This document shows, piece by piece, positions 19,031 through 61,566 of a DNA stretch of 64,000 nt (position 1 is its first letter; the number at the start of each line of letters is the position of its first letter). This stretch comes from Daphnia carinata (lineage: Eukaryota > Arthropoda > Branchiopoda > Diplostraca > Daphniidae). Location: the NCBI RefSeq assembly GCF_022539665.2, contig NC_081340.1, positions 2,914,001-2,978,000 on the forward strand, read 5' to 3'. The notes beneath the pieces were generated by a model, which was not told the DNA's origin, ran no database searches, and saw only the letters and a program-made list of their open reading frames with translations. The position numbers and the translations under genes were made by a program.

Positions 19031-19394
19031 GCGATTAGAAAATCAATTAGAAATCACAGGTAAATAGAGATCGACTGTCAATTGAAAGCCGCGGAGAACG
19101 GGGGAGGATGTGTATTTATTTCCCGATGGATAATGCTGTCTCGTCTAGAGAGAAGCGATACTAAATTATACTTGCACCCCATTTGAAAATAGAGGTTGTA
19201 TTCCAGTTGTTTTGTTTTTCAGTGTCGGCTATTACAAACTGTTAACCTTTCAAACTATTACAATTCGTCCGTTTGCATTGAGCAATCCAGTTATCGTCGC
19301 ATCGTTCCAACATAAAGTATATTGTGAGTGGTAACCCTTTGTACGGAAGAGCTTGATCGCCGTATGTTAAGCTCCATAGATAGCGTTAATCTAA

Positions 19395-20092
19395 GGCAAT
19401 CCGTTTTACACCCGAAAAAAAAAATTTCGGGCTTTTTTTCCGGATTTACTTCTATCGCCATCTATCGGTCAGATTTCTAGCTAGTTCTCTACATACCATT
19501 CACCGAATATTTCTGTGGCATCGCGCTAACGCTGTAGCGTACTGGCGCGCTGGCATTGCGTCAAATGTTCGGTGTATTTCAAAAAAGATTAACTTAGTGA
19601 AAAAAATTGCAATTACCCTGGAATCAGCATTCAATTTTAAGTACATCCTGTGATTTAAAACCAATTCCGATGAGTGTTAGTTTTTGAAGGACAAATTTTA
19701 AGCCCGACTAAATAAGCCCGACTTTTCTTATACCCTTAGCCGGGCTTATTTAGTCGGGCTTAAAAATTTTTTCTGCAAAAACTAACACTCATCGAAATTG
19801 GTTGAATATCAAAGGATATACTCAAAATTGAATGCTGATTCCGGTAAAATTGCTATTTTTGTCATTAAGCTAATCGTTTTCGAAATACGGCGAACATTTG
19901 ACGCAATGCTAGCGCGCCAGTACGCTACAGCGCTAACGCGATGCCCCTGAAATATTCCGTGAACGTATGTAGAGAATTAACTAGAAATCTCACCGGTAGA
20001 GGACGATAGCTATGGCAATCCGTTTTACCCCCCCAAAAAAAATATATATCGGCCTTTTTTTTTCTTGTTTCACTGCTATCGCCATCTACCAG
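19395..20092. mobile_element. Foldback (long inverted-repeat) element with flanking direct repeats
   Basis: Two arms of about 270 bases (about 19450-19710 and 19745-20010) are reverse complements with scattered mismatches. They share ctagttctctacata, the TAGCGTACTGGCGCGC block and the block around gaatgctgattcc. The loop centre is itself a small palindrome (AGCCCGACTAAATAAGCCCG and its complement). An 80-base module starting ggcaatccgtttta and ending in cgccatct occurs before the left arm (19395-19475) and again, in the same orientation, after the right arm (20012-20092). No transposase is present, so it is non-autonomous. A half copy lies at 61862-62160. Confidence 0.8.
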
Positions 20093-20689
20093 TCGGTAGA
20101 TGGTGACAGCAACCGAAACAAATGCCAGCAAAAAGCAAACAAATGCCAAAGGTGAGACATGCTGGAAAAGCTTGATACGAATGTGTAGGCGTAGTTTTGG
20201 AATTCAGAGGTGCTAGCTGGCTTTTTGGTAAAACTTCAATTAAATTTGGTTTCAATTCAATATGTTTTACTATTATTTGTGTGATTACGCAAAGGATTGT
20301 GCCATCCAGGCAATGTGGATATTCTGCCATGTACATGATACACCTAGGATTCTTCGTCAACATGCAAGATGTTATCCCCTGGTAATGCTTTTTCGCTGAA
20401 TTTGTTTAGTTTTATAATTTTAATCGTCAATGTCGTATTAGCAAACTACTGTTGTAGAAAAGCTGATACATTGGGACAATGGTTATGGCAAGTGTGTTGA
20501 ATAAATCACCATAGATCATTTGCCTTGCCTTCCCAATTGCAACAAAGACAAATCATGGAGTCAAAAACATTAAAAGGTGGTACTATTTTAATTGATATAT
20601 TGCTAAAAGCTGATACATGTGTAGAACGTACTGGAATTCATGTCATCATGGAGATGACTAAAAAAAAAGAGCTGTATCCATGAAGCAGC

Positions 20690-21110
20690 TCATTAGTCAT
20701 GTCCCAAATGAATGCCAGTGTCAGCCAGCAATCTTTCAATGGCTAACAGCATTTAATGGTTTTGAAAATTGTGGTTTGCACTCCCTAAGGGGACATTCCT
20801 AAATCCCACCTGTCAAAAGATTTGAATGGAACAATTTTTATTCTGAATTGATGCCTACCAAATTCTTTTTCCATAAAGTGAGGTGATATGAGGTTATAAT
20901 GGAAATTGTTGTCAAGACTGCCGAGACCAGGTACATTGTTTACCTTAATGTTTAGTGATCAAAACAACCAACTTTGTAACCTTTCTGTTTTTTATGGTGC
21001 ATGGAACGTCCAATCGGAAAGCCCATGGAAGATCTCTGTGGCCAACACGAAGAATTCTTCCAAACTTTCGTATTCAAGTTTTGGCCATGGTGATCATTTG
21101 CAACTGCATG
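20690..21110 (+). pseudogene. Degenerate POLR3A (RNA polymerase III largest subunit) fragment
   Basis: Translated pieces line up, in order, with the bridge-helix/trigger-loop part of Pol III RPC1: GFENCGLHS, NNFYSELMPTKFFFH, then EIVVKTAETRYI and KPMEDLCGQH. The pieces are split by frameshifts and stops, so it cannot make protein. It lies just left of the palindrome at 21.4-22.9 kb, the position RPC1 copies occupy relative to the larger palindrome at 44-51 kb. Identification comes from remembered family motifs. Confidence 0.65.
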
Positions 21111-21980
21111 GCCTTTTAGAAGCTCCTGCCAGGAATCTACAGGAATGTGGCAGATGATGAATTTATGTACCATGTAAGCTATATCGATAAGAATGTTTTA
21201 TGCTTATCTATATTTTATTTTCTTAATTTAGATTAATGGCAGTAGTGAACCTGCGAAGGTTTCTGGTTGCGATGTGATGACGAAAAAATTATAATAATGT
21301 GAACTACGGAATTGAATTTCCATCCAGGAGTCGCCTGTGTATTCCCGCGTATTACGGTATTAATTATTTAAAAATTGAAGTGCATATCTGGGCTCCCTTC
21401 TTTTCTGTAGCCCCGTTTCCCCTTGACTCATAATAAGCCCGTAGGGGGTCATGCCCCTACTGTACGGTATATATAAAAATAACATATACCGAGGTTTGGA
21501 GGGCTCTGGCCGGAAAGGGGACGTGGGGGTCCTCATGGTCCGATGATGTGTTCACGGAGGGCTGTGTCGCTACGCACAAATCCGAACTAAAGGCTAATCG
21601 CTCCTGTAAAAATGTTCCGTATCTTCGTCTCTTCTTCCGGCTTCTCTTAGCCAAGCACCGGGTAATCTCCCCGGTGGGTCAAACAAGGCAGTGTCTCCCC
21701 CTGCCTTGGTTGACGGCAACTTTTGTAAGGGGTTATATATCCCTTCAAAAGTTGCAAAAACAATTGACTTGTGCAGAGAATTGTCAATAAAAATCTATTT
21801 TAAACAAAAGTTTTGCAAATCTTGATTTATTGACTTTGATTGCTGTGTTAGTTGTATGGATAAGGCTTAGGAAAACTTTCACTTTTCATTTATCATACAG
21901 GTAAGGCACGATTGATGTGTAAACATTGATCATTGCTACATTCATGATAGCCTATTGATACTTATGATATTTTCGATTTT

Positions 21981-22050
21981 GACTCTCTGGGGAATCGAAC
22001 CCTACACGTTCGGCTTATCACGCCGATGCTCTACCATTGGGCTACGAGTC
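21981..22050 (-). pseudogene. tRNA-Ile-like sequence (anticodon GAU), degenerate
   Basis: A good A box (TAGCCCAATGG), a perfect anticodon stem (TCGGC/GCCGA) with loop GTGATAA and a consensus B box (GGTTCGATTCC) can be read. The acceptor stem is short and mismatched, the D stem has one mismatch and so does the T stem. GAU is not the usual eukaryotic nuclear isoleucine anticodon. It looks like a tRNA-derived module rather than a working gene. Confidence 0.6.
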
Positions 22051-22150
22051 GTGTTTTAATGTTTGTTGTAATTTAGGGACATCCCATTTTCACTTATAAT
22101 AATTTTGATGATTGTTTTAAAACAAAATAACAAAACATGTTATAACATGT

Positions 22151-22218
22151 TTCGTAGCTCAATGGTAAAGCATCGGCGTGATAAGCCGTATGTAAAAGGT
22201 TCGATTCTCCAGACAGTC
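22151..22218 (+). pseudogene. tRNA-Ile-like sequence (anticodon GAU), inverted partner
   Basis: This is the mirror copy of the tRNA-like sequence at 21981-22050. It keeps the A box (TAGCTCAATGG), the anticodon arm with GTGATAA and the B box GGTTCGATTC. The two copies differ at several positions and share the same anticodon. Confidence 0.6.
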
Positions 22219-23279
22219 AAAATCGAAAATAGCACAATTATTAATAGGCTATCATGTATGTATCAATAACCAAGGTTTATACATCAATTGTGCATTACCT
22301 GTGTGATAAATGAAATGTGAAAGTGTTCCGAAACTTTACATCCATATAACTAACACAGCAATCAAAGTCAATGAATAAATCAAGATTTGCAAAAATTTTG
22401 TTTAAAATAATTTTTTATTGATAATTCTCTGCACAAGTCAATTGTTTTTGCAACTTTTGAAGGGATATATAACCCCTTACAAAAGTTGCCGTCAACCAAG
22501 GCAGGGGGAGACACTGCCTTGTTTGACCCACCGGGGAGATTACCCGGTGCTTGGCTAAGAGAAGCCGGAAGAAGAGCCGAAGATACGGAACATTTTTACA
22601 GGAGCGATTAGCCTTTAGTTCGGATTTGTGCGTAGCGACACAGCCCTCCGTGAACACATCATCGGACCATGAGGACCCCCACGTCCCCTTTCCGGCCAGA
22701 GCCCTCCAAACCTCGGTATATGTTATTTTTATATATACCGTACAGTAGGGGCATGACCCCCTACGGGCTTATTATGAGTCAAGGGGAAACGGGGCTACAG
22801 AAAAGAAGGGAGCCCAGATATGCACTTCAATTTTTTAAATATCAAATACCGTCTGGGGAATCCGAATGAAGTACAGAAATGTCATGTCATCCATCCAATC
22901 ATTACAATTTATTCAGTGTCTTGCCCCAACCAAGAATCTTTTCAGATCCAATGTTAATATTAACCTATATTGAGAAAAGAAAAACAACACCAATAAGCAT
23001 ATCAATTGTTGCTCATGTAACTTACATGACTCATAGATTCAACTTCTGGTGGAAGCTTGGGAAAGGACATACAAATTGCAGATTAACATCATTGTTTAAG
23101 GCTCTTGAATGATAAACTAGCACCAGTAAAATGTTGCATTGTTGATAGTTGTGTTCCCAGTATATGAAAATCCTTTCCTATTGGATAAATTTTTTTTTTG
23201 TAGATTAGACACGGTTGGCAAAAAGAAGGAGAAATGCTTTGTCATAAATTCAAAATTATTTGAAGAAAATTCCTTTCAT

Positions 23280-23615
23280 ACCTAAAGAGTCCATGTATGT
23301 TCATCACTGCAATGGCGGCAAAGTGAAACATCTTTAGGGCCATTTAAGTACCCAGTTTCACCAACACTCTGAACGTAAAGGACAAGTTGTTCTTTAGCCA
23401 GAGAAGCAGAATTATTTGAGGCTTCTAGCTGTGACATAACTATAGAGGATTGCTGTTGTACCAGATTCATTAACACAAGATGATACTTCTCATTAGACAA
23501 TTTACATTACTCTATTACTTTACCTTATACCTTAATGGTAATGCATTCAGTGTTTTTTCAACTACAGGCAGACTCTTCCATCCTGTAACACTTCGAGACT
23601 TGACTTGATCCCCAG
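23280..23615 (-). pseudogene. Degenerate POLR3A fragment
   Basis: On the minus strand, VVEKTLNAL is followed by a stretch shared with the copy at about 45.13 kb, then VQSVGETG and, after a frameshift and stop, MALKMFHFAAIAVMNI. The last two match the Pol III signature QSIGEPGTQMTLKTFHFAG followed by ASMNI. Broken frames mark it as a pseudogene. It lies right of the small palindrome and points toward it, mirroring the fragment at 20.7-21.1 kb. Confidence 0.65.
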
Positions 23616-24209
23616 CTAAAATTCTATGAATGCAAAATAATAGCATTAAAAATACTTTTTCAATAGACAAAAAACCGAGAAGTACCCAATCCAAGTTTGA
23701 TGTTGAACTCATGCCATTTCTGGGTTTCCATACCACACCCATTTTCGGCAGTCTTTATGGTAATATTAACCAAAGCCACATGTACCACTATGAAATGGAT
23801 GTTGAAAAGCAAATAAAAACCTGTTGAGATGGATATCAGGAGAATCAGAATAGATCTGAATCAACTTCAGTTATTCTTTTCCCTAAAGTACTTAGTGACA
23901 TAACATAATAGATATACCTGCCTCAATTCAGAACCATAGACCAACGGAAAAGAACACAGAAATGTAGCTGTGAAAGCAGATCACTTTAGAACATAGGATC
24001 AGGTATAGATCATCTAAGAGTAGACCTAAAATGCAAAGACAAAAATATTGGGCATAATTGCAGTTTACCAAACACAGTAGCAAAATAAAATAATTGTCAA
24101 AGAAAGACATATGCACACTTGGGTTGGCGAACGGGTAGGTCTGATGCAATGCATGGCAATCCGTTTTTGTATGCAACGCCATCTGTGGAGCTTAACAGGC
24201 GGCGATCAA

Positions 24210-24979: not shown

Positions 24980-26730
24980 GACATGACCAACGCTGTTATA
25001 TACTCTCAGGACAGTGTGGTGATGGTTCGTACTTTTATGCCACCTATGAACGGGAAATCGAAACATTTAGGAAAGGAATCTAGCCCACCTATGAACGGAA
25101 AGCAGAAACATTTTACACATCACGCCACCTATGAAGGAAAACTAAACACTTTAGATAAGCTGTATCCTTGGGACATTGCCAGTTCGATGGCGACAAAGTC
25201 GGGTCTTCACACTGACATTTGCCCTAGTCTGAGTGTTAGAGAGTCTATAGTGATAAATTGTGGTGAAGTGTTAGTGAAAACCATTTCCAATAGACTACAG
25301 ATTTCTTTTAGAAAGGTGGAAGTGCCAACAAAAATGGTTTATGTTAAGTTAAATCCTCAGGGTTTCCCTATGCTTAAAAAAAATGGATTTACCCGTGAAA
25401 CAATATACCTTCAGTAAAAGAATTAGCCAAATCATCATTTTGAAAAATTAAAAATATGCATTTACCTTGTTGAAGAACATTTCTATTTTGCCTCACATCT
25501 GGTTCCTCCTCTTATCACATTCTCCAGACACAGTATGTCTCTTTACTGAACTAAAAAACCATAATTAACTGAATCATGTTTTAGAAAAACATGTTAAAGA
25601 AGCCTATTTACCTTGCTGACAGAGATAACAACAGAATAGGACATATCAGTTGGGAACCTCAACCTGAAAAATATAAATCAACATTGTTGGCCTTAATTAC
25701 CATTTAACAATTTCATTCCCTCCTAACCTTTCTATAAAAAAAAACTTTAGTTTGTTATTGCGAATGACATCTTGGCAATTGCCTTGCCTCTCCCTTCTTC
25801 TGGTCACCTAATGTCAGGAAATTGTACCTATTTGCAACAATGAAAAATCTGTTAGGGGTAAAAAATTTCATAAATCATAGCTAAATCATAATAATAAATG
25901 AAAATATTTTCACCACTAGTCTGGGAAAACACTGGTGATTTTGGAATTGCTTTGAAATTTAGAAAGAGCACTCTTGTCTTACACTCTCTTCAACACATTC
26001 TGGATTACTGCCTTGTCTTCATTCAGCCCTGGATATTTGTTACAAATACTACAATAATCTGGTAAAATGAAAATTTGGTTAACCAAGCCTACTTGAAAAT
26101 TTGGTTACCAGCTTTACTGATATATTATTGTTGTATTATTATTAATATAATGATGATCGTAACCATAAAATAATTACTCCCTGGGCTTTACTTGGTAAAT
26201 TTTACCACTTCCACATGTGTTATCTATTATCTTTTTCAAAAGAGAAGGTAGTATAATATTGGTGATACCTATCTAGGTGATCCTGTTGATTTCATAAGTA
26301 GCTTTGGTTATGGGAGATATTACATCTCAGTATGTGCTAAGACAAAAGCCTGAACAAAACCACACATTTCAGTCAAATCTGTCTTAATGCTTCAAATGTA
26401 TAGCCATGGTAGTAAAAATAACAGTATAGATTATGCAAGGTAAAATTGCATCAAATACCCTTCCAAGCAAACAATTCTTCAACACTTGCAACATAACATT
26501 TTTCCCCCTAAGAGTTATGACCCTTTCTTTGGTATATTACCTATAAATCAATTTGATGTTTCCTTGTTCAAGAGACGGGAATTAGATAGGAAATCCATGA
26601 TTGAATTCATCGACAAAATGGCGATTTTGAGCTGTACAGCCAGTCGGAAGTAGCATCGCACGTTAAAGCTCACGTCATAACCAGCGTTTCAATTCCAGAA
26701 CAATGAGATCTATAAGAACGTTGTCAATTG
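24980..26730. mobile_element. Outer segment of the palindromic element (copy 1)
   Basis: This stretch is the reverse complement, with divergence, of 41330-43560. Matching anchors include the block around 25320-25400 against 42840-42900, 25405-25475 against 42740-42800, 26460-26640 against 41390-41600 and the terminus near 26700 against 41340. The left part holds three units of the minisatellite seen at 43000-43560. An uninterrupted 144-residue ORF (24983-25417, plus) crosses this minisatellite and resembles nothing I know. No transposase or reverse transcriptase is seen. Confidence 0.75.
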
Positions 26731-39110: not shown

Positions 39111-41329
39111 GGGGAAAAAAGGCCGAATGGTTATTTAGGAATTTGCATCACTGTTATGATATCATCTTCCTGTCACAGGAAGTTTGTTGTAATTATTGTT
39201 CCCAAGTTATAGATTTAAAAATATGTATGGCAGCATACTTGTACCTTAAAGCACTTTAAACGAAAATGACAAAAGTGATGTTTTTTTTAATACATAAAAC
39301 ACGTTTTCGTTTTTAGGGGAACGGGAGAAACGCTAATATTTGTAAGCTGTGTTTGCAAAGAATAGTGTAATTTCTCCTTATATAGTTGTGATTGTAACAA
39401 TACTTCTGAATTTTTTTGCCAGGGAGTGTTGCTTAAATTCTAGGAAATACCAAAATCAAAGAAAGTGATAGATATAAGGTTACCGATTTTCATGGCTGAA
39501 TGTAACTTCAAGAAGATCACTGCTCGTTTCGCTTGTTGGGGGTCTCAATCTGGTGAATTAAACAAAAATTTTTGACAGGTAAACATGTATGACCACGATT
39601 CACAACGATCGAGCACTGGTTCGTTCTCAACAAACGATTGACTACTGAGTTGGCTTTGATCTATCCTTAACGTGTACATGGCCTTCAAAAGTTAGCCTCG
39701 CCCATCGACTCCAACGTTGAATTTCCTCTAAAAGCCCAAAACAAAAAAAGACAATTCGACGAGGATTTTAGTGGTTGGCCAAGAGCCAAAACAATCAAGC
39801 CCCGAAGGGCATACAAATTGTTCGTGTTATAGACGAAGCCTTTTTCAATTCGCTTATGCCAAATCAGGATTTGTGTTTTACTTACACTGTTACAAGAAAT
39901 TTTTTCAAAGCTTGGAATAAATTAATGATGCAGAAAAAAGCCTTTTTACTTTAAGATAAGGGGAGCTATCAACAAAAATTCTGCCACTGTAGAAAACTCT
40001 TAAACAGTTCTACAGAAACGATAGTGATCTAGTTTTAGTAAAATAATTATATCGGCTAAGGTGAAAGCAAAAAAAAAGAGTTCCCTGAGAAACTAGGAAA
40101 CTATCATGAAAAATAAAGATGTTCCCACTCGAACGATTTGCGAGAATGCTACGATCCATCTTGTGCAAGGGATGCATTGCCATAATGAATATATCACGTC
40201 CCTAATGGAACAGGGTCTAAGTCAATTTTAAAGCTAAAACTTGCAAAGAACACTTTAAACTATGCCTTATATTCGTATTAAAAACGAAGCCAGGAAATGA
40301 AATCGAATAGTAATTTCAGTGGCGCAGATTTTAATTCGCGTTGTCTATGAACCGAAAATAATGCAGATTTTTATTACATATGTACATCGCAAATCCTTTT
40401 TTGTTTCTTTCCCATTTGCAGTCGGGGATGTAAAGTTCTTTGGCAAACTGCACGAGATTCCAGAATAAGGACTGATAAAAAAAAAAATGTACGAGATTTT
40501 TTCGAGCTTTAGCCTACAACTCCGTCTGCAGGTACGAATAACTCTGGGGAGGGGGGGGGATCTAAATTTATTTTTATTGATACTATACTGATTGATTCAT
40601 TTTTTATTGACACGATTATACATTTAAAATAAAGCGCACAAGGAAAGATATATTTGTTACCTTTTAGGTGAGAATTCCCGGCACAAGAATTTCGATTGCT
40701 GAGTTCCAGATCCCATCTACAACTTATATTCAGCTGGATTGAATCAAATTCACGCAAAAATGGATTTTGCTGAATTCAATTTAGGTGAAATACAATCCAT
40801 CTCAAATTGCGCTGAACTAAATATTCACAAAGTAAATAAAAAATACACAATTTTCACAAATTTTCTTGGCTCCTTTCCCTTCCCCTCTGTTCGCAGCAGA
40901 CTATTTTACCACACGTAATTTTTTATTTACAGTTGCAGCAGTCATATTTCTGTGTTGTCTGCAATTATAGTAATTGTTCTTAAATATAAAAGAAAAGAAA
41001 AGAAAAATTTTTAACGCGGTTGAAAACTCGCGATTTTTTAATTACTGTTTATAGTAATTGTATTTATTATTTATTTATAGATTGCCGTGCTTCTTTCGTC
41101 TTCTTTTCGCATACAACATTGCAATATATGAAAGAGGAGGAGCTAAAATCCAGAGATGGGTAGTGAATTGGAGAAAAAACGACTAGGGCGAGATTAATTT
41201 CAGCTAAAATAAATTTCAAATCCAACTTCACGCAAATCTGTACATTAAAAAAATCGATTCGTAATAGAAAGTTTCAGAGAGCTATAGTTAGACCCTAAGC
41301 AAGTCCGTTTCTTTTTGTTTAACCATGGC
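39111..41329. other. Intergenic, no gene seen
   Basis: About 2.2 kb of AT-rich sequence with only short chance ORFs and no recognised repeat. It must contain the serpin 2 promoter and possibly its true first exon. It ends at the border of the large element. Confidence 0.5.
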
Positions 41330-43560
41330 AACGTTCTTAAGGATCTCATTCCTCTGAATTTGAAACGCTGTTTTGAGGTGAGCTTAAACGTGGGGTGCTA
41401 CTTCCAACTGGCTGTATCGCTCAAAATCGCCATTTTTATGATAAATTCAATCGTCGATTTCCTGTCAAATTCCCGTCTCTTGACAAGGTAACATCAAATT
41501 AATGTAGTAGGTATTATACCAAAGAAAGGATATACTACTTAGGGGGAAAATGTTATGTTACAAATGTCGAAGAATTGTTTGCTGGGAAAGGGTATATGAT
41601 AAAATTTTACTTTGCATAATCTATATTGTTAATTTTACTTCCATGGCTATGCATATGAAGCATTAAGACACATTTGAGTGAAAGGTTTAGTTCTCTTCAG
41701 GTTTTTGTCTTAGTATATACTGAGATGCAATATCAGCCATATCCAAAGCTACATACAAAATCAACAGGATCAACTAGATAGGTATCACCAATTTTAAACT
41801 ACCTTCTCGTTTGACAAAGGTAGTACATAACACATGTGGAAGTGGTAAAATTCACCAAGTAAAGCTTATTGAGTCATTGTTTTATGATTCCAATCATCAT
41901 TATATTAATAGTAATACAACAACATTATATCAGTAAAGCAATACTTGGTTAACCAAATTTTAAATTTTACCAGAAAAATTGTTGTTTGTAACACATATCC
42001 CAGCTTTAATTATTAGTCGACACATTGGTAAAAGAGTTTTGTACTGGAGCTATACATAATATTTTGTATTTGTTTTTTTTAAATTAATGTTAAATGTATA
42101 ATTAATTTTCTTTCTGTTTTCTTGTTCCATAGATTGCCTGCTGTTCATTTCTTACCAATTTGATTTTATTATTTGAAAGCAAAAGGGCAGAATGCAGACG
42201 AGGGAGTAATCCAGAATGTGTTGAGAGTGTAAGACAAGGTGCTCTTTCTAAACTTCAAAGTAATTGCAAAATCACCATTGTTTTGCCAGACTGGTGGTAA
42301 CAATATTTTCATTTATTGTTTATATTATATATATATTATTATTTATTCATGATATCTGAAATTTTTTACTCCTAATGGATTTTTCTTTTTTGCAATAGTA
42401 AATAATAATTTCTTGTCATTAAGTGACAAGGAGGAGAGAGAGCCAAGGCAACTGCCAAGATTTCATTCTCAATAACAAGCTGATATTTTTTTTTATAAAA
42501 ACGTTAGGAAGGAATGAAATTGTTAAATGATAGTTATGGCCAACAAATATTGAGTTATACTTTTTAGGTTGAGGTTCCCAACTGTCAATGTTAAGTCCTC
42601 TTCTGTTAAGCCCCTTTTTGTGAAAACATGGTTCTGTAATTTTTTTATTTTTTTTTTTATACAGCTAGGTGAATATGTCTGTCTGAAGAATGTAAATGTG
42701 ACTACAGGGGGGGGGGGGGAATCAGGAGTTAGGCAAGATAGAAACGTTCTTCAACAAGGTAAATGCTCATTTTTTTTATTTTTCAAAATGATGATTTGGT
42801 TAATACTTTTACTGAAGCATGGTGTTTAGTGGGAAATCCATTTTGAACAGCTTACGGAAACCCTGAGGACTTAACATAAGCCATTATTGTTGGCACTTTC
42901 GCCATAGTAAAACAAATCTAAAGTCTATTGGAGTTCGTTTTTACTTATACTCGCCTCACACATTTCTAAAAATGTGTCTGTTTCCCTTTAATAGGTGGGG
43001 TGCTGTTTTCTGAAAGCCAATTTTTTTGCTCATAGGTGGCGCAAATGATTTTTCTATATGTTAAGCTTCGCTTCATGGGTGGCGTGAAATTTCGGAAATG
43101 TTCGCCAGTTCATAGGTGAAACCGATGGTTGAACAAGGGTTTCTTATTCATAGGTATCGTAAACCGATAACTTTTTGGAATGGTTAGGGTTTTGTTAATA
43201 GGTGGCGTAAGCTGTTTTCTAAAATGTTTTGGTTTCCCGTTCATAGGTGGCTCTCGTATAATGTTTCGGTCTCTGGATAATAGGTGGCTCTGCAACAATG
43301 TTTCGATTTTCGGATAATAGGTGGCTCTGCAGTAATGTTTCGATTGCCGGATAATAGGTGGCTCTCTAATGTTTCGATTTCTGGGTGACAGGTGGCTCTG
43401 CAATAATGTTTTGGTTTTCGGTTAATAGGTGGCTCTCCTGAAATGTTATGGTTTTCGGTTAATAGGTGGCTCTCCTCTAATGTTTCAGTTTTCGGATAAT
43501 AGGTGGCGCTACTGAAATGTTTCGATTTCCTGATAGTAGGTGGCCCAAGTTTACATTATC
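41330..43560. mobile_element. Outer segment of the large palindromic element (copy 2)
   Basis: It is homologous in inverted orientation to 24980-26730. The outer 100-200 bases (around 41400-41500) contain the terminal block with caaggtaacatcaaatt, which recurs inverted at 51760-51865. The right part is a minisatellite. No intact ORF of note. Confidence 0.75.
43000..43560. repeat. Minisatellite of about 39 bp, about a dozen units
   Basis: Units follow the pattern ataggtggctctg, then aataatgtttcgattttcgg, with length variation. Three reverse-complement units are at 25035-25135. The array marks the junction between the outer segment and the POLR3A arm. Confidence 0.85.
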
Positions 43561-44282
43561 CTAGTGTCATGACATCCTACATTGTTTTCATGAAGATGTG
43601 CAGTACCTATTGGCAGCCTTGAAGCATTTTAGTTGCGTCGAAGAATTTCGTTCCTTGTCTGGTGAGTAGTTAATAATGTTCCCTATTTCTATTATCACCT
43701 TTTTTCTGAAGGATAATGCTTAAAACATTAATTTTATAACTTGGAGTATGAACTGTCCTTATAAAAATGGAAATTTTTCTTGTTAGTACTTCAAAGCAGT
43801 AACACCTGTGCTGAAAAACAGTTCACGAAGTATGATCATCTGTTCTTCTTAGTGATGAGGTGAGAAAGATTTTTAGAGTAAATTAAAGAGTCAATAAATT
43901 TCTTTTCTGCCTAAAAAGGCATTGAGGGAGCAAATTCGAGAAATGGGCAAAAAAGTTACTTTCATTGCAACCATCCCACATGAAAATGCTGCAGAGTTCA
44001 ATAATAAATAAAGCAAATGATTTCCTGTGGTCTGATCAATGTGCTAAATTCACTAGACATCTGTCATTTGTGTTAAACAATTCCTAATGAAGATTTTTAT
44101 TTTCTTCGGAATAATCTAGAACATGTTGATCTAAGGACATGATCCTCACCCACAGCAATTATCTCCACCAAATAGTTTCACCAAATGCGGTTGATTTGCA
44201 ATGAAGAAGTCTTTACAGTGAAAAAGGTTGAAAGGTAGTACAATATTACTTGTGCTATTAAATTAATACATGTTTTAGATTG

Positions 44283-46300
44283 CTGATGGATTGAACGGGC
44301 AGAAGAGGTTTGCAAAACCGAGCAGGATCCAAGTAACATCCGATTAGACGTTTCCAAATGCGGGACCGAAGGATCAAATTAATATATCCAAGTGTAAGCA
44401 GGCCTTGAATGGCAAACGAGTGCCTAATGGTTATGGAGATTGCAGTTTGTTTCACTTTAAGCGCCGTTCAAAAATCCTCGCTGACAAGAGAGTTGTTTCT
44501 AACATTATTATTCTGGACTGACGCCCACAGAACTAAGGTTCCATGCAAAGAGTGGTCGTGAGGATTTGGCGGATACTGCAGGTAAACTTTTACGTTTAGT
44601 GACCAAAACGATTATCATTATAATATGTTTTCAAAGGTACGTACAACGACTACTTGTTAAATCCTTGGAGTATCATCGTTGCAAATACGATTTGACTGGG
44701 GAAAATTCTGCCGGTAAGATGGTAAGTTAATTTATGGAGACCATTGTTTGGATCAACCAACATGAAAGCCAAAGATAACTGTAGATTTTCGAAGAGCTTT
44801 TAATCGTATTATAGCAATGCATGCAGATGAAGATCTGTTGGATCACACTACCACAATTTTTACAACAATTATGGAAACGATCCCTTTAAATCGCTTGGGG
44901 TCTACTTCAAACATAAACTGAGGTAATCCACTGCTTTTTGTCAGTTGATAAAGCATTTTAACGGTACTATTTGGCATCGGTTGAATTTTTCTGGAGGTTA
45001 AAGTCAAACAAGTATAGAAAGTACGGGAGCATTACAAAACTGAATGTCGGCCACCATTGACAGTGGAAACAATTTGGAGTGCATTACCGTAGGTAAACTA
45101 GTGGAGCTTTGCAAATTTTTTAAAGAGATGTATCACCGTATGAACCGGGTACAACAGCGTTAGATTTTGTCACAGCTAGTTACTTCAAATAATTCCCCTG
45201 GTATATTGCACATGTGACTATGTATTGTGCTTGGAAACGGCTGCCGGTGACCTTTGCGCCCAGAGCATTGGTGAACACGGCACTCACACGACGTAAAATA
45301 CGTTTTTCGCTGGTGCGTCATCAATGGGCATCATATAGTGAGTTCCTAGGTATGGAAGGAATTTTCGGCAATGATGAGATTTTTGACTTTGTATCCCGGC
45401 AATTTTCAGGATTAAGGAAATCTTTAACATCTCAAAGGCCACCAATACAGCTGTTAGCTGTAGCTCCTAATCTATGTCTTTGCGGAATATGCTCTACGAG
45501 TAAGCAAAGAAAAACCAATGCCCTGAGAACTAAACCTTGGTAACCATTTTCTTTCTGTTTTTTACTTCTGTCTTTTGTAGGTGACAAGATAGTTTGAAGT
45601 AGTATATCTGGCTGATGACCGTTTCAGTGTTGATTAAAATGGACGTGAACCGAATCCGCTTGCTGAAATCAGAAATGGCTGCAAATTCTGTACAGTCAAG
45701 GTAAATGTATCGTTTCTGGCATATGAAATTTAAACTATTTTTGTGTTTTAAGATTTTTTTTTGGGGGGAGGGGGGGGGTCATGCCTTTGCATGTAAACTA
45801 GAAAACAAAAGTTTGAACCAAGTCATTAATGAAAAAATAGTCACCGTCAAAACTGCTCCATCTGCAAAATCATCAATGTATCGATAGATGCAGTACCTCA
45901 AGGAACAGGGTTGTCATAAAGGTATTTAAACTTTTGTAACCAATAACGCATTTCAATTTGTTACTTCCCTTATGTTTGGGAAACTTTGGATGAGCTGCCT
46001 TAACGGGTTAACTAAAATGAAGGAGTACATTTTTATGTTTTCGCCCGTAACAGCATGCAATAGGTTCTTACAAAGTTCATGTACGTTTTCAGGTAATAGT
46101 AGTTTGAGAGAACGTCCTGCATTTATGCGATGCATTTTTTTGTGTCCAAGAGGACGAGGTCACTGATTTAAGTGATTGCGCCATTATGGGAGTACCAATC
46201 GCAATCCTAACCAGAGCTTTCAAGTTACTGCATAAAGCAGGGAACACCATTCTACCAAAACCAAGGCAATTTACTTTCGATGCCATCTGCCATCTGTCAG
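44283..46300 (+). pseudogene. POLR3A (RPC1) C-terminal half, unprocessed pseudogene, left arm
   Basis: Pieces collinear with Pol III RPC1 occur in this order: CKQALNGKRVPNGYGDCSLF, FHAKSGREDLADTA, YVQRLLVKSLEYHRCKYDLT, LETAAGDLCAQSIGEHGTHT then a stop and NTFFAGASSMGI (45210-45330), FRIKEIFNISKATNT (45407-45455), VYLADDRFSVD, VNRIRLLKSEM, SAKSSMY, LTKMKEYIFM and IMGVPIAILTRAFKLLHKAG (46185-46250). Intron-like gaps with GT/AG ends remain between pieces, so it came from genomic DNA, not from mRNA. In-frame stops and frameshifts rule out a functional protein. ASSM after the FAG motif and FKLLHK point to Pol III rather than Pol II. Confidence 0.8.
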
Positions 46301-47169
46301 GTACAAGTATAATGTTTTCATTTGCAATTAATATGCTTTTTCAGGAGCTCCTGACAGAATGTTTACGGAAATATCCAATTTGATTAATTTATGAATCATG
46401 TACGCTATATATATATATATAAAAAATATCTGCTAACTATGTTTTATGTTAATATAGATTAGTACTCGTACCGGAACTCAAAATGTGCCTGTTTGGAGTG
46501 AGACACGGAATAATTGTAAGGATTGGATGGAAGACGTGGAATTGCAATGCTGTATTCAGATTCCCCATACGGTATTTTATTTAAAAAAGTTGAAGTGCAT
46601 ATCTGGGCTCCCTTCCTTTCCGTAGCCCCGTTTCCCCTTGACTCGTAATAAGCCCGTAGGGGGTCATGCCCCTACTGTACGGTATATATAAAAATAACAT
46701 ATACCGAGGTTTGGATGGCTCTGGCCGGAAAGGGGACGTGGGGGTCCGCTTAGTCCGATGATGTGTTCACGGAGGGCGACGTGGCTACACACAAATCCGA
46801 ACTAAAGGTTAATCGCTCCAGTAAAAATGTTCCATATCTTCGGCTCTTCTTCCGGCTTCTCTTAGCCAATCACCGGGTAATCTCCCCGGTGGGTCAACAA
46901 GGCAGTGTCTCCCCCTGCCTGGGTTGACGGCAACTTTTGAAAGGGCTATTGTGCCTTTTTAAAGTTGCAAAATCATTTATATGTGCAGAGTAATGTTAAT
47001 ACAATTTATTTTTTTTTAACAAAAAAAGAAAAACTTCTGTTTAACTTTATTCTTACTGTGCGATTTTTTTTCATTGCTTTTTTTTTCACACAAGTAGCCA
47101 CAATACATGTATTATCCATGGTTATTGATACATAGCTGAGAGCCTAATTTGTTTTCAATTTTCACACGT

Positions 47170-47232
47170 TAAGGAATCGAACCCTAGATGTTTGGCATAC
47201 CGCGCCGATGCTCTACCAATGAGCCATGAATC
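47170..47232 (-). pseudogene. tRNA-like sequence in the palindrome core
   Basis: The A box TGGCTCATTGG and B box GGTTCGATTCC are intact. The anticodon loop lacks the invariant U33, so the anticodon assignment (GGU by position) is doubtful. It is in the same relative position as the tRNA-like sequence at 21981. Confidence 0.5.
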
Positions 47233-47357
47233 ATATAATGTTAAGTTGGCTTTTTTCTTGTCACTTACGGACTTACATTTACACTAATAAAACTGAAATA
47301 TAATGTTTCAATATTTTTTTCTACAGTTATTCTGCTTTATTTTTTGTATATCAATTG

Positions 47358-47417
47358 AGGTTTGAACACAGGATAACAGATATCGCAGCTAAACGCTCTA
47401 CCACAGAGCTATGGAAC
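47358..47417 (-). pseudogene. Second tRNA-like sequence in the core, weak
   Basis: The minus strand reads TAGCTCTGTGGTAGAGC, a good D arm, and a B-box-like GTGTTCAAACC. The anticodon arm does not fold well. Confidence 0.35.
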
Positions 47418-47517
47418 TTATGAAACAAGTAGACAGATAAACATATAGTTGTGCAAGACTGCACAAACAGCCTAGACGATAACATATGATATGCGATAAT
47501 AAAAATTTTATATATAT

Positions 47518-47583
47518 ATCTCGTGGCTCAATGTTAGAGCATCGGCGTTGCACGCTGAAAGTCTGGGGATCGGTTCCCAAACG
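47518..47583 (+). pseudogene. tRNA-Ala-like sequence (anticodon UGC), degenerate
   Basis: CTCGT at the 5' end pairs with ACGAG at the 3' end, the D arm is GCTC..GAGC with one G missing from its loop, and the anticodon arm is TCGGC-GTTGCAC-GCTGA with anticodon TGC and one G-T pair. The T arm is shifted from consensus. It is probably a relic. Confidence 0.5.
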
Positions 47584-48619
47584 AGTAAAATAAAAATCAA
47601 ATTCAAAATTACTTCAGAAAATATCCTGGTATTATTACACGTTGTTCCTTGAGTCTAAGTCAAAGAGTAATAAATAATAATTGAATACTTAAAGATAAAC
47701 CAATGGAAACAATGCTTACCATAAAAGGAGGCAAACACAATAAAAGGTGAATTGAGCAACCTAAATAGAAAAAAATTGATAAATGTAATGTGTGAACACA
47801 GCGGAAACAGGCAATGAAAGAAACAAATTATGCTAAAAATATGTTAAAAAAGCAATGAAAAAAAGCGTACAGTAAGAATAAAGTTAAACAGAAGTTTTTC
47901 TTTTTTTGTTAAAAAAAAATAAATTGTATTAACATTACTCTGCACATATAAATGATTTTGCAACTTTAAAAAGGCACAATAGCCCTTTCAAAAGTTGCCG
48001 TCAACCCAGGCAGGGGGAGACACTGCCTTGTTGACCCACCGGGGAGATTACCCGGTGATTGGCTAAGAGAAGCCGGAAGAAGAGCCGAAGATATGGAACA
48101 TTTTTACTGGAGCGATTAACCTTTAGTTCGGATTTGTGTGTAGCCACGTCGCCCTCCGTGAACACATCATCGGACTAAGCGGACCCCCACGTCCCCTTTC
48201 CGGCCAGAGCCCTCCAAACCTCGGTATATGTTATTTTTATATATACCGTACAGTAGGGGCATGACCCCCTACGGGCTTATTACGAGTCAAGGGGAAACGG
48301 GGCTACGGAAAGGAAGGGAGCCCAGATATGCACTTCAACTTTTTTAAATAAAATACCGTATGGGGAATCTGAATACAGCATTGCAATTCCACGTCTTCCA
48401 TCCAATCCTTACAATTATTCCGTGTCTCACTCCAAACAGGCACATTTTGAGTTCCGGTACGAGTACTAATCTATATTAACATAAAACATAGTTAGCAGAT
48501 AATTTTTTATATATATATATATAGCGTACATGATTCATAAATTAATCAAATTGGATATTTCCGTAAACATTCTGTCAGGAGCTCCTGAAAAAGCATATTA
48601 ATTGCAAATGAAAACATTA

Positions 48620-50640
48620 TACTTGTACCTGACAGATGGCAGATGGCATCGAAAGTAAATTGCCTTGGTTTTGGTAGAATGGTGTTCCCTGCTTTATGCA
48701 GTAACTTGAAAGCTCTGGTTAGGATTGCGATTGGTACTCCCATAATGGCGCAATCACTTAAATCAGTGACCTCGTCCTCTTGGACACAAAAAAATGCATC
48801 GCATAAATGCAGGACGTTCTCTCAAACTACTATTACCTGAAAACGTACATGAACTTTGTAAGAACCTATTGCATGCTGTTACGGGCGAAAACATAAAAAT
48901 GTACTCCTTCATTTTAGTTAACCCGTTAAGGCAGCTCATCCAAAGTTTCCCAAACATAAGGGAAGTAACAAATTGAAATGCGTTATTGGTTACAAAAGTT
49001 TAAATACCTTTATGACAACCCTGTTCCTTGAGGTACTGCATCTATCGATACATTGATGATTTTGCAGATGGAGCAGTTTTGACGGTGACTATTTTTTCAT
49101 TAATGACTTGGTTCAAACTTTTGTTTTCTAGTTTACATGCAAAGGCATGACCCCCCCCCTCCCCCAAAAAAAAATCTTAAAACACAAAAATAGTTTAAAT
49201 TTCATATGCCAGAAACGATACATTTACCTTGACTGTACAGAATTTGCAGCCATTTCTGATTTCAGCAAGCGGATTCGGTTCACGTCCATTTTAATCAACA
49301 CTGAAACGGTCATCAGCCAGATATACTACTTCAAACTATCTTGTCACCTACAAAAGACAGAAGTAAAAAACAGAAAGAAAATGGTTACCAAGGTTTAGTT
49401 CTCAGGGCATTGGTTTTTCTTTGCTTACTCGTAGAGCATATTCCGCAAAGACATAGATTAGGAGCTACAGCTAACAGCTGTATTGGTGGCCTTTGAGATG
49501 TTAAAGATTTCCTTAATCCTGAAAATTGCCGGGATACAAAGTCAAAAATCTCATCATTGCCGAAAATTCCTTCCATACCTAGGAACTCACTATATGATGC
49601 CCATTGATGACGCACCAGCGAAAAACGTATTTTACGTCGTGTGAGTGCCGTGTTCACCAATGCTCTGGGCGCAAAGGTCACCGGCAGCCGTTTCCAAGCA
49701 CAATACATAGTCACAGTGCAATATACCAGGGGAATTATTTGAAGTAACTAGCTGTGACAAAATCTAACGCTGTTGTACCCGGTTCATACGGTGATACATC
49801 TCTTTAAAAAATTTGCAAAGCTCCACTAGTTTACCTACGGTAATGCACTCCAAATTGTTTCCACTGTCAATGGTGGCCGACATTCAGTTTTGTAATGCTC
49901 CCGTACTTTCTATACTTGTTTGACTTTAACCTCCAGAAAAATTCAACCGATGCCAAATAGTACCGTTAAAATGCTTTATCAACTGACAAAAAGCAGTGGA
50001 TTACCTCAGTTTATGTTTGAAGTAGACCCCAAGCGATTTAAAGGGATCGTTTCCATAATTGTTGTAAAAATTGTGGTAGTGTGATCCAACAGATCTTCAT
50101 CTGCATGCATTGCTATAATACGATTAAAAGCTCTTCGAAAATCTACAGTTATCTTTGGCTTTCATGTTGGTTGATCCAAACAATGGTCTCCATAAATTAA
50201 CTTACCATCTTACCGGCAGAATTTTCCCCAGTCAAATCGTATTTGCAACGATGATACTCCAAGGATTTAACAAGTAGTCGTTGTACGTACCTTTGAAAAC
50301 ATATTATAATGATAATCGTTTTGGTCACTTAACGTAAAAGTTTTCCCACTCTTTGCAGTTTTTACTCTAGTGATCAGTGAAATCCTCATGACCACCCTTT
50401 GCATGTAAATTTAGTTCTGTGGGCGCCAGTCCAGAATAATAATGTAAGAAACAACTCTTTTGGCAGCGAGGATTTTAAAATGGCGCTGAAAGTGGAGCAA
50501 ACTGCGAACTTCATAACCATTAGGCGCTTGTTTGCCATTCAAGACCTGCTTACACTTGGATATATTAATTTAAGATCCTTTGGTCCCGCACTTAGAAATT
50601 TTTAATATTAAGTTACTTGGATCCTGTTCAGTTTTGCAAA
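48620..50640 (-). pseudogene. POLR3A (RPC1) C-terminal half, unprocessed pseudogene, right arm
   Basis: This is the inverted partner of the pseudogene at 44.3-46.3 kb and carries the same broken motifs. In the diverged outer part it keeps some ancestral residues the left arm has lost: RSLLHFQRHFKILAAK here against CSLFHFKRRSKILADK on the left, the former closer to the family's RSLPHF...AAKGFV. It likewise cannot encode a functional protein. Confidence 0.8.
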
Positions 50641-51699
50641 TCTCTCCTGCTTGGTCAACCCATCAGCAATTTAAAACATATTAATTTAATAGGAACACAC
50701 GTAATATTGTACCACCTTTTAAAATTTTCTACTGTAACAACTTCTTCATTGCAACGGGGAATGCAATGCAGATAAATCGCATTTGGCGCAGCCATTGTGT
50801 GAAGATAATTGTTGCGGGTGAGGATCATGTCCTTGAGATGAATGTTTTCGATTCTTCAGAAGAAACTGAAAATCTTCATTAGGAATTCTTTGAAAGAAAT
50901 GACATATGTCTGGTGGATTTAGCATGTTGATCAGACCACGGGAAATCATTTGCTCTATTATTTGTTGAACTCTGCAGCATTTTCATATGGGATAGGTGAA
51001 ACGAATAACTTTTTTGCCCATTTTTCGGATTTGCTTCCTCAATGCCTTTTTTATCAGAAAAGAAATTTATTGATTCTTTAATTTACTCCATAAATTGTTC
51101 TCACCTCGTCATTGAGAGGAAAAGATGACCATGTTTTATGAATTGTTTACAGCATAGTTATTACTGCCTTGAAATAACCAACAAGTGAAATTTAAGTTCC
51201 ACTCTACGTAATCAAAATGGCCTTTGGCATCTTCCACACCTCACCCCTAGAAGAACAAAAAACACATATAAGGCAGATGATCAATATTTATGAGATATAG
51301 TTGCACATTTGCCTGTCCAGCATTACATACTGCATGCATGTTCGGGATGAATCACAGTCGAACAAGTTGTGTGCTAAAACTTGCATGGGAACTTGATATT
51401 GCATTTGCTGAGGAACTTCGGTCAGGATGCAGATCCTTGCCCTAGATAGTTATCTATTAGAAGGATTTAAGCCATACCACTAAGATAAGTACACTGACGG
51501 CAACACATCCCTTTTTTTGGACACTTGCATTCTAGTCAGATAAGGACATAAGCATTCCATACTGCATCGGTCGTGAAAACAATCATAGTTGTACAGGTTT
51601 TGTTCTGCAATTACAATGCAGCACCTAGCATAACAAAATTAACAATTCAGGAATTGAAAGAAAAAAACTTTTGTGCTACAACATGCCTGCAAGAAAGTT

Positions 51700-51870
51700 T
51701 TAACACTTGTAACACAACACATTTTTACTCCATTTTTCCACCCATTGTTTAGTACAATGCATGCAACATCAATTTGATGTTACCTTGTTCAATGGATGGG
51801 AACCGAGCAAACTGCCCATAATTGAATTAATCCTGAAATGGAATTTGCCAGGGACAGAGATAGCAGGAAG
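51700..51870. mobile_element. Right terminal block of the large palindromic element
   Basis: A block centred on aacatcaatttgatgttacc (51767-51786), followed by about 80 conserved bases, is inverted relative to 41400-41500. It marks the right end of the large element. The sequence becomes unrelated after about 51865. Confidence 0.65.
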
Positions 51871-53204
51871 CGGCGGACCACGTTTACGCCAGGAAGACGA
51901 TCACGTCGTAATACTACTTATACGTGTATATGAATGCCAAAAATAAATAATGACAAACCTACATTAGCTTTAACTTATTTTCCGCCCACAACTGGAATAA
52001 CACCCAGCCAATGCATGAACGCATTAGTGCCAATATTGGCCGCAAGGTGATATGGAGGATTCTTGCATGTCATTAACGATGCGTGATGCCACGCCCTAAT
52101 TCGTGAGTGCTACATAATAATTGAAAATTTTAAACAGTTGCTTAAATTTTTTGTTTTATTATTACCTTGGATATTGTTTATCACGATTTTCTTGATACAG
52201 TTCATTTATTACATTGTACAATAGTTTCGACGAATTTAAATGGGAGTTGTTTTATACCGGAAAATGGCCGCTTGTGTTATCAACATGGTTTGGAGTCGTC
52301 ATTCACGGTATATAATAGTTGCGTGAACATCTTAACGTAGCGGCACTTGAACAATGACTGGTTATGGCACCCTTCCAATGTTGGGAACTAGTACCAAGAG
52401 TCTGTAAGCAATTACAACTCGAAACGTCAAGCGTTGGTATGGGATTGGCCCCCCATTCCAATGCAAAACTGAATAGGGATGTAAGAGCTCTCAGCTGATG
52501 TCACGATGGATTGAATCAATAGCTGTACTATACGATTCAGTCCATCCGGGCAGTTCTGGAGGTTACTAGTATGTCAATCAAGTGCTTAGCGCAAACATTT
52601 TTGCTATTTTTTCAATAATTAAAATCAAAACTGACAAACCAAAACTCCTATCTCTGCCGAATATTTAAGCATTTCCTTAACATAGAAATAATCTAAGGGC
52701 GAAATTAGGAAATAGCCATTAGCTGTGTAAATGCAAACTGGAAAAAAATTTACATTTCATTTTGCGATTCAATTTAATAGCGAAAGATAAATACATTTTA
52801 AACACAACAACTTAATAATGCTTGTGGACTAACGCAATGAATAAATGGGACTTTGTGCTAAGCGACTGTATAAATAATTCATTGCATTTATACGAAGAAC
52901 CATGATATATTTCCCACAAATGTCACAGTGCATAATTCTGTTCAGAAATTACGATGTTGTACGAACACTAATTGAAATCGCCTTCATCCTCTTTATGTAA
53001 TAAAAACTAAAGACAAGTAGATTGAGTAACAACATAATAGCTGTATTCAATATTTCAGTTAATAAACCACATGCGTATGGGGCGACTAGTTATTGCATAA
53101 ATACAATGCAGGGAAATACTCATTTTGGAACGAGGACAGCAAATAATAAAACAAGATCTAATTATTTTTAACTATTGAGCTTGACGGACAACGTATTTTT
53201 ACGA
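51871..53204. other. Downstream flank of the Tyr-rich gene, copy A of a duplicated block
   Basis: No gene is seen. From about 52000 to 53200 it is colinear with 55450-56620 (for instance gcgtgatgccacgccctaat in both), showing that the duplication included the gene's 3' flank. Confidence 0.7.
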
Positions 53205-54722
53205 TTAATAATACTTAGGACGCTCAGTGTAATAGCTTGGTGCAGCATACGGTGTGGTGTAGTACTCGGGGGCCTTTGTAGTATGGTATTGGGGAGCCTC
53301 AGTGTAGTAAGATGGAGCTGCGTAAGTTGTGGTGTAGTATTCTGCTTTCTTGGTGTAGTACTCCGAGGCTTTCGTCGTGTAGTATTGCGGAGCCTCGGTG
53401 TAATAAGCCGGGGCAGCGTAGGTAGTGGTGTAGTACTTGGGGGTCTCGGAATAGTAGCTCGGAGCAGCGTACGTTTTGGTGTAGTATTCAGGAGCCTTTG
53501 TGGTGTAGTATTGCGGAGCCTCAGTCTGGTAATACTTGGGAGCTGCAGTGTAGTAAGCCGGGGCAGTGTACGTTGTGGTGTAGTATTCAGCCTTCTGTAT
53601 GTAATCCTCCGGGGCTTTAGTCGTGTAGTATTCAGGAGCCTTTGTGGTGTAGTATTCAGGAGCTTCCGTGTAGTAAACTGGAGCAGCATACGTTATGGTG
53701 TATTGTGGCGCCTCAGTCTGGTAGTAGCTTGGGGCTGAATAATACTTGATAGCTTCGGTGTAGTAAACCGGGGCGGCGTATGTTGTGGTGTAGTACATGG
53801 GAGGCTCGGTATAGTAGCTTGGCGAAGCATATGTTGTGTACTCTGGAGTCTTTGTAGTGTAGTATTGCGGAGCCTCACTATAATAGGCCGGAGCAGCGTA
53901 AGTGGTGGTATAGTATTCAGCAGCCTTCGTGGTGTAGTATTGAGGAGCCTCTGTGTAGTAAGACGGGCCAGCATAAGTTGTGGTGTAGTACGTAGGTTCC
54001 ACGTAGTACGAAGGAGCAGCCGTTGTGTAGTAACTTGGTGCAGCGTAGGATTTGGGGGCTTCAGCGTAGTATGTCGGCTCAGCGTAGTAAGACGGGGTAG
54101 CTGTTGTGTGGTATGTTGGAGCCACGTAGTACTTGGGCGCCTCTGTCGTGGTGTAGTACGACACAGTCGTTGTGTAGCTCGGCGCAGGGTAATATTTCGT
54201 GGCCTCAGTGTAATAAGACGGAGAAACGTACGTTGTGGTGTAATACTCAGGGGCCTTTGTGGTATAGTAGGCCGGAGCTGCATAGGTCGTGGTGTAGTAC
54301 TCGGGCTCCTTTGTTGTGTAGTATGTTGGAGCTGCATAGGTCATGGTGTAGTACTCGGGAGCCTTAGTGGTGTAGTAGTTAAGAGCAGCATGTGTTGTGG
54401 TATAGTACTCGGGCGCCTTTGTGGTGTAGTAAGAGGCGGCTGCATACGTCGTGGTGTAGTAAGACGCCGGAGTGGTGTAGTATGCAGAAGAAGACGAGCC
54501 CATTGGTCCACCCATGACCTGTCCAGCCATCAGGGAGACAACGGCCAACAGCAGCATCGCGCCGTAGTTACCTGACACAAAGATAATGCATTCACATAAA
54601 TCTCACGATCCAATTGAATACAGCGCAAATACACACGTTACAATATTACAATTGATCGATACCAAAACTAATCAAAGGTGTAATTCTTTCGACTATAGTA
54701 AATGCAACGTTAAATTACCCAT
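53205..54722 (-). CDS. Secreted tyrosine/threonine-rich repeat protein
   Basis: Exon 1 is 54722-54719 (ATGG only) and exon 2 is 54571-53205, giving about 456 residues. The protein starts MGNYGAMLLLAVVSLMAGQV, a clean signal peptide. The rest is about 18 imperfect repeats of 20-25 residues built from PEYYTTTYAAPSYYTEAPQ and TTKA, with almost nothing but Tyr, Thr, Ala, Pro, Lys and Glu and no Cys. Such YY-rich extracellular proteins can be cross-linked by dityrosine or catechol oxidation, so a cuticle, egg-case or adhesive role is plausible, but I recognise no named family. A TATA box and initiator lie at the right distance upstream. A decayed paralogue is next door at 56.6-57.4 kb. Confidence 0.85.
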
Positions 54723-61457: not shown

Positions 61458-61566
61458 GATGCATGCAACATCAATTTCAAGTTACCTTGTTCACTGGATG
61501 GGAACCGAGCAAACTGCCCATTATTGAATTAATCCTAAAATGGAATTTGCCAGGGATAGAGATCGT
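61458..61566. mobile_element. Solo terminal block of the palindromic element family
   Basis: About 105 bases from tgcatgcaacatcaatttca onward match 51758-51865 with few differences. The rest of the element is missing. Confidence 0.7.

Follow-up and report, generated by a model that had tools for sequence, protein, structure and literature searches.

A dispersed family of palindromic repeats with POLR3A-derived arms in the genome of Daphnia carinata

Foldback transposons, such as FB and Galileo of Drosophila, have long inverted repeats and are dispersed in many copies with little or no sequence coding for movement. Pack-MULEs and Helitrons are gene-capturing non-autonomous DNA transposons that carry intron-containing pieces of host genes in many copies, and tRNA-derived SINEs join a tRNA-derived head to a retroposed, intron-free body. 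The inverted gene pairs of Caenorhabditis, maintained by an active mechanism, are convergent paralogues that form near-perfect inverted repeats, their structure being kept better than their sequence (PMC1803023); mammalian sex-chromosome palindromes are maintained by conversion, with arms >99% identical that change in concert (PMC3723533, PMC8981503); and Dada transposons insert into tRNA and snRNA genes, in Daphnia pulex as well, with a 6-8 bp duplication (PMC3706591).

The element described here lies in a window of 64,000 nucleotides of the Daphnia carinata genome, the whole stretch of DNA that was analysed, and in design it is related to foldback transposons, to palindromes maintained by conversion and to the maintained inverted gene pairs of nematodes. 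As in foldback transposons, the copies are dispersed and long inverted repeats make up most of an element, but the Daphnia arms derive from an intron-containing host gene and the arm pairs evolve in concert. The initial annotation had proposed a foldback-type element with a captured piece of POLR3A; a dispersed palindromic element with unprocessed POLR3A sequence was confirmed, while its membership of the foldback group is no more than possible, neither target-site duplications nor a transposase having been seen in the sequences examined. The Caenorhabditis pairs are single old loci (PMC1803023), whereas the Daphnia family appears to comprise ~490 dispersed copies, and compared with mammalian sex-chromosome palindromes its elements are far shorter, far more numerous and spread across the chromosomes, with tRNA-like cores. 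With Dada (PMC3706591) it shares an association with tRNA genes in a Daphnia, but the tRNA-like sequences of Daphnia carinata lie in the element core, no transposase was seen, and no tRNA or snRNA gene was found split around the element as Dada insertion with its 6-8 bp duplication would leave it. The family differs from Pack-MULEs and Helitrons in being palindromic with arm homogenisation, and none of the known termini were found in it; a tRNA-derived SINE was ruled out by the retained introns and the internal tRNA-like sequences. A survey of 26 parthenogenetic animals gave at most 19 palindromes per genome, which were defined by gene collinearity, so that the counts are not directly comparable with ours (PMC7953838). 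No published description of this Daphnia repeat was found among titles and the beginnings of abstracts, a scope that does not extend to subscription journals or repeat databases.

The main palindrome was delimited by a BLAST search of the window against itself (table 1). Its arms are 94.8% identical over 3358 columns, which agrees with the palindrome expected from the initial annotation, though each arm measures 3.3 kb in place of 3.5 kb. Between 44598 and 47059 the left and right arms differ at a handful of positions, the identity in the outer arm (43771 to ~44575) is 74-88% in 200-column bins, and the change at ~44580 is sharp. The inverted terminal blocks, with 66.8% identity over 187 columns, are real but old, and base 41326 is the start of 6 of the 12 non-self matches to the left outer part; these blocks and the minisatellite on the left had both been recognized before. 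The longest stop-to-stop open reading frame (ORF) within the main element has 120 amino acids, and no transposase was seen in the three of its ORFs searched against Pfam, as had been noted earlier. When these three, two readings of the coiled-coil gene at locus L035 and one further ORF of the window were considered together, the six sequences gave no Pfam match other than Rpb1_5 below the cut-off and one chance match (E 0.15). Both this element and the one at C1:6.49 have two outer types, one on each side.

Table 1. Features of the palindromic family; positions are those of the window unless a contig (C1, C10 and so on) is given.
Feature	Position	Strand	Evidence or remark
Left outer part of main element	41326..43218	.	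common to other members
Left inverted terminal block	41382..41560	+	aligned with reversed 51710-51889
37-bp minisatellite, left outer part	43219..43544	.	8.9 copies; present in other members too
Left arm, main palindrome	43771..47083	+	window self-BLAST; pairs with 51193-47846
Decayed POLR3A C-terminal exons with introns, left main arm	44444..46281	+	tblastn with L045 exons, RPC1 match
Conserved, strongly folding arm domain, left copy	46591..46990	+	RNA fold z, conservation, mirrored variants
Core between main arms	47084..47845	.	window self-BLAST
tRNA-like sequence, main core	47170..47226	-	Rfam 23.6 bits, below 29-bit cut-off
A-box-like word, third central tRNA-like sequence	47400..47411	-	two mismatches to pattern; no Rfam match
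tRNA-like sequence, main core	47519..47587	+	Rfam 25.5 bits, below 29-bit cut-off
Right arm, main palindrome	47846..51193	-	window self-BLAST
Conserved arm domain, right copy	47938..48337	-	position inferred by symmetry
Decayed POLR3A C-terminal exons with introns, right main arm	48648..50506	-	tblastn with L045 exons
Right inverted terminal block	51710..51889	-	part of block 94% like 61459-61563
Second family member, commoner type	20089..24167	.	right border shared; left border tentative, by eye
POLR3A exon 1 remnant, left arm of second member	20794..20928	+	E 8.5e-11
Inner arm, left, second member	21354..21801	+	window self-BLAST, arm alignment
tRNA match, core of second member	21980..22050	-	Rfam 34.4 bits, above cut-off
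tRNA match, core of second member	22148..22216	+	Rfam 31.6 bits, above cut-off
Inner arm, right, second member	22404..22852	-	window self-BLAST, arm alignment
POLR3A exon 3-4 derived flank, second member	22860..23710	-	767 candidate places in genome
Older outer part, resembles 41326-42945	25273..26726	-	outside second member; window self-BLAST
Palindromic member	C10:2064689-2076320		arms 5.56 kb, 99.66%
Palindromic member	C10:1974795-1988214		arms 6.45 kb, 99.78%
Palindromic member	C10:2810490-2818672		arms 3.65 kb, two pieces, 99.8%
Palindromic member	C10:3600524-3608521		arms 3.6 kb, 95.1%
Palindromic member	C10:3737720-3746771		95% across whole self-alignment

Elsewhere in the window, a minisatellite of 148 bp occupies 58422-60017 (10.8 copies, 96% matches). 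On the minus strand, a 465-amino-acid ORF of YYTT/AAPSYYTE-like repeats at 53205-54602 presumably resembles Daphnia cuticle proteins; the DNA beside it, up to 57 kb, repeats its sequence, and parts are common to other places on C10. ORFs resembling serpin exons were recognized by eye at 37815-38933 (minus strand).

Considering the arms themselves, we used the intact POLR3A copy L045, of which 2.4 kb were read, as the reference. Nine of its ten exons are present on each main arm (tblastn), in order and pointing inward, with their frames broken, while exon 8 was not found by tblastn on either arm. The inward C-terminal POLR3A pseudogenes with introns that had been proposed for both arms were thus confirmed. 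The ORF at 46108-46383 matches the RPC1 chain in experimentally solved structures of Pol III (E 2.4e-7), and the 572-amino-acid splice of L045 has named RPC1 proteins among its matches. Against Pfam Rpb1_5, the stretch 44503-44730 reached 24.8 bits, under the 28.5-bit cut-off, and longer stretches of the two main arms barely exceeded it (29.8 and 29.4 bits). Domain searches located POLR3A-like sequence with both Rpb1_2 and Rpb1_5 at nine places, four on C10 (5242601-5246324, 5639844-5643563, 5769232-5772953 and 5930411-5934151), two on C1, two on C101 and one on C88; nine fuller copies in one genome are unusual for such a gene. Because these searches of the genome gave no Rpb1_2 match at the palindromes, the latter are taken to hold the C-terminal part of POLR3A only. 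Besides the POLR3A-like places, C9 has two Rpb1-type genes and C5 has another, and C6 has an Rpb1_2 match. The two on C9 (8018196-8021463 and 8035133-8038400) are near-identical, with Rpb1-type domains and an 888-amino-acid open frame, and are perhaps a duplicated Pol II gene. In the commoner element type, four flanks from three loci (both sides of the 20.1-24.2 kb member, the left of a C1 element and the right of a C10 element) are 63-69% identical to the intact POLR3A copy, with DNA E values of 3e-45, 3e-39, 2e-44 and 1e-20 in a one-sequence search. Since the protein-level matches were weak for three of the four (E 6.5, 0.18 and 2.5, scaled to 100 Mb), the POLR3A origin of these flanks was judged by the DNA match.

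The three tRNA-like sequences that had been seen in the main core proved a fair but weak observation: two score below the Rfam cut-off, and the third is visible solely as promoter-box-like words with mismatches. At the gathering cut-off, tRNA was the sole Rfam family found in the window and ten loci, and one tRNA match above it was obtained across the ten loci. ARAGORN reported no tRNA in the element cores of the loci examined. With a lowered threshold it reported something in 9 of 10 cores, but these matches carry little weight, because a still lower threshold yielded 216 'genes' in the window. When the Rfam cut-off was relaxed, the second member's core also matched microRNA families and an sRNA family of bacteria; these were taken as chance hairpin matches. 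The orientation of the core varies between elements; nothing was concluded from it, since with symmetric arms a flipped core amounts to element orientation only.

A second palindrome of the same family, at ~20.1-24.2 kb, was absent from the initial annotation. Its 851-bp right flank has 767 candidate places in the genome; the 40 scored of these 767 are all at least 92% identical and sit on C1-C8 and C10, several as plus/minus pairs around arms. The border at window base 24167 is the exact start in 32 of the 39 scored non-self places and lies no more than 5 bases off in 36 of 39. A small T- and G-rich repeat adjoins this border, which may therefore be the small repeat's own edge. At 19391-20088, a small palindromic repeat (561-bp self-match) lies between 79-bp direct repeats with GGCAATCCGTTTTAC, and similar ends border the 24167-type arms.

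A search of the genome with part of the main left arm returned further family members, and the innermost 2 kb of the main element is far commoner in the genome than the rest. Allowing two mismatches, a 27-base word taken from the inner arm is present at 976 places (497 + 479), in place of the unique locus of a conversion-maintained palindrome, while its reversed control occurs at none and the exact 27-mer was absent from the viral contigs searched. The first 100 places, which all lie on C1, include 46 convergent pairs (92 words), of which 44 are spaced 1100 +/- 27 bp and two 16-17 kb; four of the eight unpaired words run in the same direction within 10 kb, at C1:11159014-11169118, contrary to the convergent rule. 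Assuming that C1 is typical, halving the arm words suggests ~490 elements in the genome. On sequence comparison, the main element is a long-armed member of a large dispersed family. The copies are neither single nor without shared boundaries, findings that would have spoken against the mobile-element reading: there are 976 arm words, and the border of the commoner element falls on the same base in 32 of 39 scored non-self places. Along C1, element spacing showed no departure from random in the direction of regularity (P 0.49). Notably, the arm word is missing from 3.4 Mb at C1:6716140-10076490, while on the left arm of C1 there is on average an element every 193 kb. Neither the ~490 copies nor the concerted change of the arms had been foreseen, and the same holds for the conserved domain and the coiled-coil gene described below.

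The arms were compared in ten elements that have both arms in the fetched loci (eight on C10, one on C1 and one on C7), over the domain at 46595-46960 (~370 bp), with the partial arm at C10:1653408 left out beforehand. Within an element, the two copies of the domain are 99.2-100% identical in all ten cases; between elements, identity ranges from 90.7 to 99.2%, with a mean of 96.1%. Three elements have arms that diverge by 26-37% in the adjacent outer part and yet are >99% identical in the domain. Departures from the majority are mirrored on both arms in 83 of 96 element-columns, the joint change of arms known from conversion-maintained palindromes, and when arms of different elements were paired, mirroring averaged 6% and reached 19% at most in 200 permutations. 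These comparisons of sequence demonstrate that the two arms of one element evolve in concert. As the elements share a homologous core, the palindromic plan would be older than their divergence and arm identity would have been restored later, we infer by conversion or at each copying.

The domain is also conserved in diverged surroundings, at 96% between elements versus ~75-78% for neighbouring parts of the arm. Such a pattern could result from selection, from conversion with a bias, or from the inner part being replaced repeatedly. The stretch 46590-47000 folds better than shuffles (z -4.0), and variable columns are fewer among paired (24 of 218) than unpaired positions (48 of 189, P 2e-4). 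On the other hand, no compensatory changes were found among 18 distinct sequences, 11 of the 109 pairs are broken in some copy, the antisense strand folds nearly as well, and no Rfam family matched the domain. A structured RNA is possible. A Pol III type-3 promoter before the domain was sought by eye and set aside, no clear shared element being seen upstream of two U6 genes.

Predicted ends were fetched for nine elements. Fourteen of the 18 ends continue as a gene with introns that encodes a coiled-coil protein, two have the 24167-type border and two have neither. The fetched pieces stop short of the true ends, and the last end pieces from one element are still inside sequence common to another copy. 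A 161-bp stretch of the coiled-coil gene is identical at 22 places (query counted) on 8 contigs among the 40 scored of 578 candidates, which shows that this newer outer type has spread recently. The annotated product is ~143 amino acids long, varying a little either way, and has its coiled coil at the N terminus; its structure was predicted with a mean pLDDT of 52.9, the N-terminal helix alone being moderately confident. A protein search gave 15 clusters with 96 member sequences, all from Daphnia carinata, by shared short words, a method that distant relatives could escape. In our reading of L035, the coding sequence would end within the former POLR3A exon 3, and the remaining arm with the conserved domain would be the 3' UTR. 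By eye, AATAAA follows the domain in 14 of 20 aligned arms and is absent in the window's main element. Apparently, a lineage-specific gene has taken a piece of a former POLR3A exon into its last coding exon.

Taken together, we consider it fairly probable that the main element is a long-armed member of a palindromic repeat family of ~490 copies that spread at the DNA level, keeping its introns, with arms held alike by conversion from arm to arm or by hairpin copying. The unit would consist of two gene-like arms with introns, in inverted orientation, that converge on a core of tRNA-like sequences; the 3' part of the arms comes from POLR3A and extends through the ~400-bp folding domain. The unit may have arisen when an inverted duplication formed where a POLR3A gene ends (3'), and C10 is the likely place, because the long-armed palindromes read lie on that contig. 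It would then have spread by a DNA-level mechanism that retains introns; many copies would have gained the new 5' gene for the coiled-coil protein and spread recently, and the halves would have been kept alike by gene conversion between arms or copying via a hairpin. The window's main element is probably of an older subfamily retaining more of POLR3A. Such a dispersed repeat is probably mobile. Several observations count against the reading as a whole: no termini, target duplications or enzyme were found in the pieces read, two of the 18 fetched ends are unlike an element end, eight of the first 100 arm words are unpaired and two pairs widely spaced, eight of the ten elements compared lie on C10, the commoner flanks match POLR3A weakly at the protein level, and the tRNA-like cores mostly escape tRNA finders. 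A stricter version, in which each copy is born as a near-perfect palindrome with mirrored variants by self-templated hairpin copying, seems unlikely to us; here, with arms descended from a Pol III subunit gene and a centre from genes that Pol III transcribes, transcription of the core by Pol III could help to open or prime the hairpin, the 5' part would have been exchanged for the coiled-coil gene, and the unit would have reached its ~490 places in this way.

Segmental inverted duplications could also have been multiplied by ectopic recombination without transposition, as in sex-chromosome palindromes. The long-armed members lie mainly on C10, differing outer parts are joined to common inner parts, and the outer flanks of the main element, including DNA to 53 kb, recur at other places on C10 and C7. 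However, short members number in the hundreds, occur on every large contig seen and share a border as well as identical stretches, so that such ampliconic growth is improbable. A host function of the coiled-coil gene or of the arm domain, whether as DNA or as RNA, with selection retaining hundreds of copies, we rate slightly lower: the conservation of the domain, its fold with less variable paired columns and the 96 annotated proteins agree with it, but the fold lacks compensatory changes and an Rfam family, tolerates broken pairs and is almost equalled by the antisense strand, and the recent identical copies fit a repeat burst. It had further been proposed that inverted-repeat transcripts yield small RNAs controlling POLR3A. 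Convergent identical arms could indeed give hairpin or double-stranded RNA, but with the 2.4 kb of the one intact copy the main arms have just one 21-mer in common, and the three commoner-element flanks compared have none, so this proposal was not upheld and is very improbable. An assembly artefact, in which chimeric reads or scaffolding created the palindromes, is hardly credible, as the outer DNA differs on the two sides, the arms differ at fixed sites and the same design recurs at many unrelated places.

Members of the genus Daphnia reproduce both clonally and sexually, and hundreds of palindromes of the same family in one genome amount to a naturally replicated experiment on gene conversion between arms. 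For annotators there is a warning, in that the 96 database sequences named 'uncharacterized protein' in Daphnia carinata belong to a repeat. In this family, part of a gene for an essential polymerase has become repeat DNA and, if the hairpin-copy reading were true, it would represent an undescribed way of DNA multiplication.
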